DNA of 62,622 bases from SAR202 cluster bacterium. Its GTDB lineage: Bacteria; Chloroflexota; Dehalococcoidia; Lucifugimonadales; UBA826. The position numbers and the translations under genes were made by a program. The notes under the pieces were generated by a model. That model was not told where the DNA came from, did no database searches, and was given only the letters and a program-made list of their open reading frames with translations. The stretch is taken from contig JAKUTY010000007.1 of NCBI GenBank assembly GCA_022447825.1, positions 1 to 62,622 of the forward strand. The letters are read 5' to 3'. This document shows positions 3,123 to 12,404 of the stretch, piece after piece (positions within the stretch are counted from its first letter, which is position 1; every line of letters begins with the position of its first letter).

Positions 3123-3371
3123 TTATCCTATATATCCAGCGTCTTTTAATGCTTGTTCTAGTTTAGCTGGACTATAACCAACAACATTTTCATCACCAAT
3201 GACTGTTACTGGAGTGCTTCGAAATCCCATTGACACCAAATCTTTGAGGGCATCACGATCTTGCGAGACGTTGTGCTCTGAATATTCAATATTATTTCGT
3301 GAAAGATACACTTTCACCATATGACATGGACCTCAACCTACAGAGGTATAAACCTTTACTGCGTCACTCAC
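3123..3371 (-). CDS. Glutaredoxin-like selenoprotein with UxxC active site (in-frame TGA read as Sec)
   Basis: Read from GTG at 3371 to TAA at 3123, this gives 82 residues with one in-frame TGA at codon 13 (3335-3333). The GTG follows AAGGAG (3383-3378) by six bases. The N-terminus reads VKVYTSVG-U-GPCH, matching the glutaredoxin/NrdH beta strand and CxxC loop with the first Cys replaced by the TGA codon. The rest is a normal glutaredoxin: FRSTPVTVIGD carries the cis-Pro of the TxP motif, and GYSPAKLEQAL follows as in NrdH-like proteins. A 65-residue ORF starting at the internal ATG 3320 would lack the whole active site. A SECIS-like hairpin follows the TGA. It lies 35 bases downstream of the FTR gene, so the two are probably co-transcribed, and FTR is its likely reductant. 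A sequence error or nonsense mutation is the alternative, made unlikely by the three matching cases. Confidence 0.85.
3299..3317 (-). promoter_or_regulatory. SECIS-like hairpin after the glutaredoxin TGA
   Basis: On the minus strand a perfect 7 bp stem GTGAAAG/CTTTCAC encloses loop TGTAT. The loop starts 22 bases after the TGA at 3335-3333, and its second base is G. Bacterial SECIS elements are hairpins just 3' of the UGA with a small apical loop carrying a G in its first two bases, about 16-37 bases from the UGA, where SelB binds. The hairpin lies within coding sequence, as expected in bacteria. Confidence 0.75.
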
Positions 3372-3406
3372 TGAACACTCCTTAAAAAACTTTAATTTAT
3401 TATACT

Positions 3407-3865
3407 CTAATTGTCCTTTTTGTCTTCTGAATCTGCCGCATCATTTTCGTCTTCTGATCTACGACGTTGATTAAATTCTTTTTTACCACCAGTATTCTCA
3501 AAAAGTTCTGTCCCAAGGGGCACAGCTTCATCGATAGTCTGTGAAAACTCTTCTCCTGATTCATACTTACGAAGAAACTCTTCGCTAACAAAAAACATTC
3601 ATATGCAAAATCCGTCACGAGCTATATCCTCATGATGACGTTCACATGGACAAATTTTCTTGCGATCCTCAACTGGATCGCCACTTAATGGCATTCAAGG
3701 GCAGTAACGATAACCTTTATTTCTATGATTTTCAGCTAAGCCTTTCTGAACTTCACTGACAACCTCTTGTTCTGGAAAAAATTCATAAGGTCCCTTAGAA
3801 ACATACCGTTCAGAAAATTTTTTAGCTCTCTCTAAAGCGTCTGATTCTGACATATCTTTAGGCAT
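3407..3865 (-). CDS. Ferredoxin-thioredoxin reductase catalytic chain with two TGA-encoded selenocysteines
   Basis: From ATG 3865 to TAG 3407 this reads 152 residues with TGA at codons 57 (3697-3695) and 89 (3601-3599). The sequence aligns by eye with the FTR catalytic beta chain: YRYCP-U at 53-57, SGDPVEDRKKICPC ending at residue 74, and DGFC-I-U-MFFVS at 84-94. In known FTRs the CPC, CPC and CHC motifs hold a [4Fe-4S] cluster (first Cys of the first pair, both of the second, first of the third) beside a redox disulfide (second Cys of the first and third pairs). Here C55, C72, C74 and C87 are kept, and exactly the two disulfide positions are TGA. The His of CHC is Ile. An acidic tail of about 25 residues ends the protein. 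It would pass ferredoxin electrons to a thioredoxin-fold partner, most likely the glutaredoxin next door. Automatic callers would report only a 63-residue fragment from 3598. Confidence 0.88.
3569..3585 (-). promoter_or_regulatory. SECIS-like hairpin after the second FTR TGA (codon 89)
   Basis: On the minus strand GCGAAG pairs with CTTCGT (6 bp with one G-U pair) around loop AGTTT. The loop begins 19 bases after the TGA at 3601-3599 and its second base is G. Spacing, stem length and loop G agree with the other two hairpins of this operon. Confidence 0.7.
3662..3681 (-). promoter_or_regulatory. SECIS-like hairpin after the first FTR TGA (codon 57)
   Basis: On the minus strand GCGATCC pairs perfectly with GGATCGC (7 bp) around loop AGTTGA. 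The loop begins 20 bases after the TGA at 3697-3695 and its second base is G. The stem lies in codons for SGDPVEDRK, a region of variable sequence between the two conserved Cys motifs, where the codons are free to form structure. Confidence 0.77.
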
Positions 3866-3873
3866 AAATTATC

Positions 3874-4191
3874 TCACTCATCTTTGTCTTCTATAAAACC
3901 CTTTCTCATCATACCGTGCATTGTACAATTCATGCTACGAAAAGATTTTTCTTGATTTTGTAATTTTTCAATTAATGATGGTAATGCATTATTAATTTCA
4001 CAGTCTGATTTATTAATAGACACTTCCAAACTTAATAATGCAGAAGTTCCACATTCACAACTTGCCGCAAAAAAAACTTTTTGAAATTCCGGGTTTGCAG
4101 AAAAGTCCATTTTAAATCCCGCTAAAGGACGCAAATTAATACCAGATGACATTTGACTGACAATTAAATTTTGAAGTGTTTTATTATCCAT
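3874..4191 (-). CDS. Unknown small cysteine-containing protein, first gene of the selenoprotein operon
   Basis: ATG at 4191 gives 105 residues; a TTG one codon earlier is possible. The gene ends with a TGA eight bases before the FTR ATG, so the three minus-strand genes form a tight operon. I recognise no family. Visible features are a SCECG motif at about residues 44-48, single Cys residues near 63 and 90, and NCTMHGMMRKG near the C-terminus. The spaced Cys and His could bind metal or take part in redox chemistry. No signal peptide or membrane segment is seen. No Shine-Dalgarno precedes the start, and a TATTAT box on the minus strand lies about ten bases upstream, so the message may be nearly leaderless. 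Its place makes a role with the FTR/glutaredoxin pair plausible, but nothing in the sequence proves it. Confidence 0.6.
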   Translation of the reverse strand: MDNKTLQNLIVSQMSSGINLRPLAGFKMDFSANPEFQKVFFAASCECGTSALLSLEVSINKSDCEINNALPSLIEKLQNQEKSFRSMNCTMHGMMRKGFIEDKDE

Positions 4192-4244
4192 CAATAATTC
4201 TATAATATGATTAATTTAGTTGATATTACACCAGCAGGAAAACT

Positions 4245-10847: not shown

Positions 10848-11654
10848 TTAGTGTTCCATAACCGATCCGCCATTTTGGTTAATAGATTGACCATGAATCC
10901 AAGAAGATGCTTCAGTACAAAGATAAGCACAGAAATCCCCTACTTCATCATCAGTCCCATTTCTACCAATTGGGGTATTTGCTGCCATGGTGTCCCAATC
11001 ATCTCGGACAACATCCATTCTAGAAGTATCGACTGCACCAGGGCAAACACAATTAACATTTATATTATGAGGCCCTAGTTCTTTTGCCATAGATTGAGTC
11101 ATACCTATAATTCCAAAGTTGGCTGCATTGTATGCAAGGAAATTTGCTGATCCTCTTTTACCTGCAGCAGAAGAAATATTGACTATTTTCCCACCATCAC
11201 CTTGTTTAATCATATGTTCTACTGCACCTTTGGTGCATAAAAATGTGCCAGTAATTTTAATATCCACAACTTTTTGAAATGTATCTTCATTCAAATTCAA
11301 AATTGGAACTCTATCTTCTGCCCTAGCATAAGCAGCATTATTGATTAATATATCTATCCTACCTAATTCTTTAATCGTTTGATCTATCATATTTTTAACA
11401 TGATCTCTATTAGTAACATCAGCAACTAAAGGCAATGCTCTTCTTCCTTCTGCTCTTACTAAATCAGCAACACTTTCTATGTCTCTCCAACCGATAGCTT
11501 TTTCATCTTCAGGATAATTTTCAGGATTCCTTCCTGTACCTGTTACAACTACATCGGCCCCTAACTTAGCTAGAGAAACAGCAGCAGCTCGGCCAATTCC
11601 CCTCAATCTTCCAGCACCAGTGACTATAGCAACTTTTCCATCTAATTCGCCCAT
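10848..11654 (-). CDS. SDR-family oxidoreductase-like protein with altered YxxxK motif
   Basis: This 268-residue protein has a Rossmann fold: nucleotide motif TGAGRLRGIG at 12-21, NNAA at 105-108, catalytic Ser region NISSAAG at 159-165, and the C-terminal PG-x-V/I stretch NCVCPGAVDTSRMD. It ends with the family-typical HGQSINQNGGSVM. The catalytic Tyr is at 175, but the motif reads Y-N-A-A-N, so the Lys of YxxxK is Asn179. Classical SDRs need that Lys to position the nicotinamide ribose and lower the Tyr pKa, so activity may be altered. Start ATG 11654 has GGAGG nine bases upstream. The substrate is unknown. It is followed on the same strand by tRNA-Val. Confidence 0.85.
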   Translation of the reverse strand: MGELDGKVAIVTGAGRLRGIGRAAAVSLAKLGADVVVTGTGRNPENYPEDEKAIGWRDIESVADLVRAEGRRALPLVADVTNRDHVKNMIDQTIKELGRIDILINNAAYARAEDRVPILNLNEDTFQKVVDIKITGTFLCTKGAVEHMIKQGDGGKIVNISSAAGKRGSANFLAYNAANFGIIGMTQSMAKELGPHNINVNCVCPGAVDTSRMDVVRDDWDTMAANTPIGRNGTDDEVGDFCAYLCTEASSWIHGQSINQNGGSVMEH

Positions 11655-11729
11655 TATGAAAGTCCTCCAAATGATTTTATTTTCAGAATTTGGAGTATAA
11701 CTTAAGCAGGGTGCGATAGCTATCCAATA

Positions 11730-12404
11730 TCACAAAACGTTTCGAATCCATTGCTCTACTTTTTCAGTCAATTCCTGTTCAGTTTCTCTGAAAGAATGGC
11801 CAGCTCCACTAAGTAAAAAAAATTCCTTGGGTTCTTCTGCCCAATCATAAATTGTTTGAGAACATAGTGGACTCAGAACTATATCTTCATCACCATGAAT
11901 CAGTAATAATGATCTAGGAGTAACAAGATTTGCCTCAGTGGCTCCTGCAGTTTGACTAGCTAAAGCAATAACGCTTTTAACTTGATCACTAAATGAGGCT
12001 GATTTAATTACAACTGCACCTCCAAAAGAATGACCTACCAAAATTAAATCTTGGTGTCCTGTCCCAACTAAAAACGATACTGCAGCGAGTGTATCCATTA
12101 CACATTCAATTAAATCATTTGGAATACGATAATCTAAACGCAATGAAGTTATATGAGGATTGAGTTTTTCCCCCAAATTTTTATATAACCCATTGGCGGG
12201 ACCATCAAAACCTCCAGAAGCACCACCCACCCAAATAACACCTTTAGTTGTAGGTAAATTTGGATCATGATGTACTATAGTTCTCAAATCACCTCTAGTA
12301 GTTTTTATAATTAAACCTCTGCCTAGCTGTGTTGGGTCTTCAATATCCCATTCTTGCAACCCTTTGATACTAATAGACATATGCTCTTCATCTGGTTGAG
12401 TCAA
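11730..12404 (-). CDS. Alpha/beta hydrolase
   Basis: This is a 224-residue protein with the nucleophile elbow GHSFGG near residue 125, an acid region HGDEDIVLSP near 170 and a C-terminal catalytic His in GAGHSF near 202, so the Ser-Asp-His triad is visible. The oxyanion segment appears as WVGGASGG. It resembles small dienelactone-hydrolase-like or YpfH-like esterases with unknown substrate. The start is TTG 12404 with AGAGGA just upstream; the ATG at 12380 is a possible alternative. It begins eight bases after the gatA stop, so it is probably the last gene of the aminotransferase-gatC-gatA operon. Confidence 0.82.
   Translation of the reverse strand: MTQPDEEHMSISIKGLQEWDIEDPTQLGRGLIIKTTRGDLRTIVHHDPNLPTTKGVIWVGGASGGFDGPANGLYKNLGEKLNPHITSLRLDYRIPNDLIECVMDTLAAVSFLVGTGHQDLILVGHSFGGAVVIKSASFSDQVKSVIALASQTAGATEANLVTPRSLLLIHGDEDIVLSPLCSQTIYDWAEEPKEFFLLSGAGHSFRETEQELTEKVEQWIRNVL

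Follow-up and report, generated by a model that had tools for sequence, protein, structure and literature searches.

A selenocysteine glutaredoxin found together with a double-selenocysteine FTR in SAR202 bacteria suggests a selenium-based electron relay

The window analyzed here, a 62,622 nt stretch of DNA from a SAR202 cluster bacterium, carries on its minus strand a small glutaredoxin (Grx) gene with an in-frame TGA at the active site, directly downstream of a ferredoxin:thioredoxin reductase (FTR) gene with two further in-frame TGAs. Reading these codons as selenocysteine (Sec, U), we consider it probable that the glutaredoxin, termed Sec-Grx below, is an NrdH/YruB-like selenoprotein belonging to a conserved cassette with the double-Sec FTR and a protein bearing C-x-C and C-x-x-H motifs, and that electrons pass from ferredoxin to FTR to Grx. 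Among 250 genomes of the order, neither seleno-gene is found without the other, a pattern that suggests an electron relay based on selenium.

The Sec-Grx gene (3123..3371, minus strand) starts with a GTG at 3371, six bases after the Shine-Dalgarno sequence AAGGAG (3378..3383, minus strand), and contains a single TGA (3333..3335, minus strand). With the TGA as U, the 82-residue translation is VSDAVKVYTSVGUGPCHMVKVYLSRNNIEYSEHNVSQDRDALKDLVSMGFRSTPVTVIGDENVVGYSPAKLEQALKDAGYIG, in which the active site reads U-G-P-C and U occupies the first, nucleophilic position of the CxxC motif. A mechanical ORF finder returned only a 65-aa fragment from ATG 3320, which begins past the active site. Pfam Glutaredoxin (PF00462), searched with C in place of U, matched residues 5-61 (E=1.4e-12; 48 bits against a gathering threshold of 22.9); since the match begins at residue 5, the stretch 5´ of the TGA is part of the homologous protein. 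The orthologs start at the same position; most of them begin with ATG, preceded by a comparable Shine-Dalgarno-like site. All of this agrees, to the base where coordinates are concerned, with the original prediction, which had proposed the 82-residue frame with its one TGA, the GTG start and its ribosome binding site, the glutaredoxin N-terminus and the fragment lacking the active site. The gene is followed by an Asp tRNA.

Orthologs scoring at least 100 bits were sought in 250 genomes of the order, and 400 genomes were sampled from the phylum. The TGA is kept in 46 orthologs of the order, down to ~54% protein identity, so its presence is not accidental. Close relatives of the locus, among them uncultured Chloroflexi MAGs and the SAR202 cluster bacterium AG-426-M11, place the lineage within SAR202/Chloroflexota. 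Only one other Grx fell within the same score range (L059, in genome G022); this nearest Cys ortholog has CGPC at 53% identity, and its genome lacks the double-Sec FTR. Homologs with neither Cys nor U at this position would have spoken against the prediction that the TGA stands for the nucleophilic Cys of CxxC; instead, UGPC is found in 46 genomes and CGPC in L059, so that the in-frame UGA falls where a homolog has Cys, as in known selenoproteins. Separately, a single in-frame TGA also occurs in many distantly related glutaredoxin-like domains (G075:C25:14087-14314, G638:C54:61616-61843 and similar loci) that lie in open frames of ~250-320 codons, and their sequences possibly represent Sec-Grx fusion proteins such as HUGP/GUXX-star.

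For all three TGAs of the two genes, a SECIS-like hairpin begins ~13-16 nt downstream. The Grx hairpin (GTGAAAG-TGTAT-CTTTCAC; 3299..3317, minus strand) lies 15 nt after the TGA, the hairpin of the first FTR TGA (GCGATCC-AGTTGA-GGATCGC) at 3662..3681 and that of the second at 3569..3585, both on the minus strand. Like bacterial SECIS elements, they directly follow the UGA and have a G in the apical loop. Across 45 Grx orthologs, the stem codons are nearly fixed (V as GTG in 45/45 and 41/41, L as CTT in 44/44, S as TCA in 45/45 and AAA in 43/45) while neighboring codons vary freely, as expected of a bacterial SECIS. Normalized synonymous entropy was lower inside the stems than outside for the Grx hairpin (0.33 vs 0.82, p=0.003), the first FTR hairpin (0.43 vs 0.90, p=6e-5) and the second (0.30 vs 0.80, p=0.001). 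Pairing was found in 99.3%, 95.0% and 100% of cells, respectively, and was strongly reduced when the partner columns were slid as a control. Compensatory changes were few (one double change, none and two, respectively) because the stems hardly vary. The stability of the window's own three hairpins was only moderately unusual relative to codon-preserving shuffles (p 0.023, 0.037 and 0.36), a test that is conservative since the codon pool included the stems. At gathering thresholds, Rfam detected only tRNAs in the window and no annotated SECIS family.

The host genome encodes a tRNA-Sec (67.6 bits against a cut-off of 47, with a TCA anticodon) as well as SelA, SelB and SelD, the machinery for Sec insertion. 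Its SelD gene has one in-frame TGA (L016, G000:C23:62097-63017), and from this sequence SelD is probably itself a selenoprotein. Given the conserved codon, the CGPC homolog, the hairpins and the machinery, we infer with near certainty that the TGA of Sec-Grx is read as Sec, as originally predicted. That the TGA is instead a real stop, leaving a 65-residue remnant without an active site or a decayed gene, is what standard ORF calling would imply, since it yields the 65-aa ORF alone; we regard this as extremely improbable, with the N-terminus, the TGA and the hairpin kept in 46 orthologs and the reading frame uninterrupted before and after the TGA. Genome-wide reassignment of TGA, for example to Cys or Trp, might account for several in-frame TGAs within one locus. 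TGA also ends ordinary ORFs, however, and is therefore not a reassigned sense codon: it closes 6 of the 49 window ORFs of at least 200 codons, five of the six with another stop within 20 codons. The in-frame TGAs of the cassette, moreover, sit only at redox-active positions, and the tRNA-Sec with its UCA anticodon and SelA/B/D are present, leaving reassignment a negligible chance. Both readings, along with sequencing error, were rejected on the basis of conservation across the 46 genomes. Elsewhere in the window (10848-12404, minus strand), an alpha/beta-hydrolase ORF that ends in TGA (11732-11730) lies in the same frame as the SDR gene after it, and this TGA is the only stop separating the two; these are probably two genes that share a frame by coincidence.

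The FTR catalytic chain is encoded directly upstream of Sec-Grx (3407..3865, minus strand; Pfam PF02943) with the motif order CPU-M-PLSGDPVEDRKKI-CPC-ERHHEDIARDGF-CIU, its two TGAs (3697-3695 and 3601-3599) corresponding to residues 57 and 89. The adjacency to an FTR gene had been predicted, and the neighbor turned out to be more than was claimed: a double selenoprotein, which matches the NCBIfam model for the FtrB family double-selenoprotein (NF041072, FtrB_double_U) with 228.3 bits against a cut-off of 160 and has Sec at both CxU sites, as a full member of the family. We take the two U positions to be those of the redox-active disulfide of FTR, with the four cluster-ligand cysteines retained. 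The Global Ocean Sampling (GOS) report of 2008, in which the double-Sec FTR was first seen and which preceded the present NCBIfam model, likewise assigns both Sec residues to redox-active positions in its passage on this protein (PMC2398784). Other Chloroflexota have FTR catalytic chains that contain just one in-frame TGA (L098, L099, L101-L104, L150-L154 and L077/L149) and look, from their sequences, like single-Sec variants; in most the TGA stands for the last Cys (CHU or CYU), in L077/L149 it is at the first site (CPU). At two further loci (L067 and L070), an FTR gene without an in-frame TGA precedes the gene of a Cys glutaredoxin (CGYT) by 65-82 nt, a naturally occurring Cys equivalent of the Sec pair.

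Upstream of the FTR gene, a third cassette gene (3874..4194, minus strand) encodes an orphan protein of ~105 aa with C46-x-C48 and C90-x-x-H93, both motifs invariant in an alignment of 24 relatives. Neither Pfam nor NCBIfam gave a confident family match for this protein, and its AlphaFold model (mean pLDDT 82) resembled no solved fold convincingly (best Foldseek E 0.5, best VIA-align Z 5.1). In the predicted fold, C-x-C lies at the tip of a beta-hairpin and a helix begins at C-x-x-H, a placement that would suit a metal site.

The three genes are distributed together. FtrB_double_U scored above its cut-off in 45 of the 250 order genomes, always with two TGAs, and in a 46th (G078) the gene is split by an assembly gap. 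Sec-Grx with its in-frame TGA occurs in exactly the same 46 genomes, none having just one of the two genes. Because the genomes are related by descent, these counts do not represent independent events, yet FTR and Grx follow each other throughout. The orphan protein is encoded in 45 of the 46 (it is absent from G058) and in no other of the 250; in the phylum sample of 400 genomes it was found in just one, that of the window, and the same genome has the sole FtrB_double_U above the cut-off in this sample. Grx is directly downstream of FTR in nearly all of the 46 genomes. A single operon is not universal, since Grx lies ~16 kb from FTR on the same contig in G562 and is divergently oriented, close to FTR, in G532.

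Sec-Grx did not reach the cut-off of any curated NCBIfam model: it scored 75.2 bits with the YruB-family glutaredoxin model (TIGR02196; cut-off 88.55), for which six other members gave 59-74, 62 bits with NrdH (TIGR02194; cut-off 85.75) and 44.5 bits with the Uxx-star family (NF041212; cut-off 66). NrdH structures were among its matches in the PDB. By its sequence, Sec-Grx thus looks nearest to YruB-type and NrdH-type redoxins among the curated models, though below their cut-offs. The original prediction had suggested alignment with the NrdH and glutaredoxin families; the glutaredoxin assignment held with Pfam, formal membership in the NrdH and YruB families did not, and the protein resembles NrdH and YruB more than it does a glutathione-dependent glutaredoxin. 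A search of the 98%-complete host genome for the ATP-grasp domain of glutathione synthetase found none, with E. coli giving a positive control. A scan of IMG/VR with Grx found no relative.

In the mechanism we propose, SelB and tRNA-Sec would insert Sec at the UGA by reading the hairpin just downstream, and Sec would be the attacking residue of U-G-P-C. Reduced ferredoxin would pass electrons to the [4Fe-4S] cluster and diselenide of FTR, the FTR diselenide would in turn reduce the selenenylsulfide of Sec-Grx, and reduced Sec-Grx would act on target proteins without NADPH or glutathione. What the sequences show directly is the frame, its conservation, the hairpins, the insertion machinery and the co-occurrence; translation of the TGA as Sec, the course of the electrons, the partnership of FTR with Grx and the targets are inferred. 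A relay from ferredoxin through the double-Sec FTR to Sec-Grx is favored because of the exact co-occurrence and usual adjacency of the genes, the NrdH/YruB likeness and the lack of a detected glutathione synthetase. With less assurance, we lean towards the fuller reading, that the cassette forms a complete ferredoxin-driven diselenide to selenenylsulfide relay, aided by the Cys/His partner found only with it, and constitutes a selenium redox system of SAR202 independent of pyridine nucleotides and glutathione.

The main competing explanation accepts Grx as a Sec protein, with NADPH thioredoxin reductase (TrxR) as its reductant; FTR would serve other partners and the cassette would merely be co-regulated. 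NrdH is reduced by TrxR, and the NrdH and YruB families are among the closest curated models and structures. A TrxR-like flavoprotein that could be an alternative Grx reductant is encoded elsewhere in the host genome (341 bits, just below the cut-off of 343). Against this stand the 46/46 co-occurrence with the double-Sec FTR among 250 genomes, usually in adjacent genes, and the distant, mostly Cys-type Grx homologs (L059-L066), which, in those inspected, have no double-Sec FTR alongside; we therefore consider reduction by TrxR rather unlikely. Less probable still, and in our view doubtful, is a cassette devoted mainly to detoxification of peroxides or selenium compounds, in which Grx would be a reductant akin to a selenol peroxidase and not part of a general disulfide relay. 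Sec is often favored for its resistance to over-oxidation and its fast peroxide chemistry, which would fit such a role, but no peroxiredoxin was recognized directly beside the cassette when the stretch was read by eye.

If the ferredoxin-FTR-Grx relay is correct, two consecutive enzymes of one electron path have both switched to selenium, and the question of why oxidoreductases adopt Sec becomes testable by comparing the Sec FTR/Grx pair with the Cys FTR/Grx pairs of sister lineages (L067 and L070). Standard ORF calling shortens both genes, which would leave the redox pair largely invisible in the genomes of an abundant ocean lineage. Sec-glutaredoxin and double-Sec FTR are already known kinds of protein; the obligate FTR-Grx pairing and the orphan partner appear to be new, being undescribed in the literature searched. 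The open-access literature (subscription papers were outside the scope) gave no account of Sec-Grx and double-Sec FTR as a cassette, and within the same scope only family-level reports were found on SAR202/Chloroflexi selenoproteins and on an FTR-glutaredoxin selenoprotein locus.

Comparison with known systems places the cassette as follows. The window FTR shares the FTR fold and [4Fe-4S] disulfide reductase character of the ferredoxin:disulfide reductases/FTRs of archaea and bacteria, whereas the closest solved FTR-type sequences (4tpu and 7pwe) have Cys at the active site where it has Sec. It resembles the GOS double-Sec FTR in having Sec at both redox-active positions; that protein came from individual reads, however, and its genomic partner genes are not described in the relevant part of the report (PMC2398784). 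Sec-Grx finds its best family matches, in fold and motif order, in NrdH redoxin (TIGR02194) and YruB glutaredoxin (TIGR02196), yet differs from them in scoring below both cut-offs and in having Sec where they have the first Cys. The known selenoprotein glutaredoxin (UxxC), listed in prokaryotic selenoproteomes and characterized from Clostridium (Alkaliphilus) oremlandii (PMC13188914, PMC9312934; Kim et al. 2011 cited there), is likewise a small Trx-fold glutaredoxin with Sec first in UxxC. The window Grx differs from it in being NrdH/YruB-like and below every curated NCBIfam cut-off, in belonging to a genome where no glutathione synthetase was detected, and in being tied to the double-Sec FTR rather than to Sec-MsrA.
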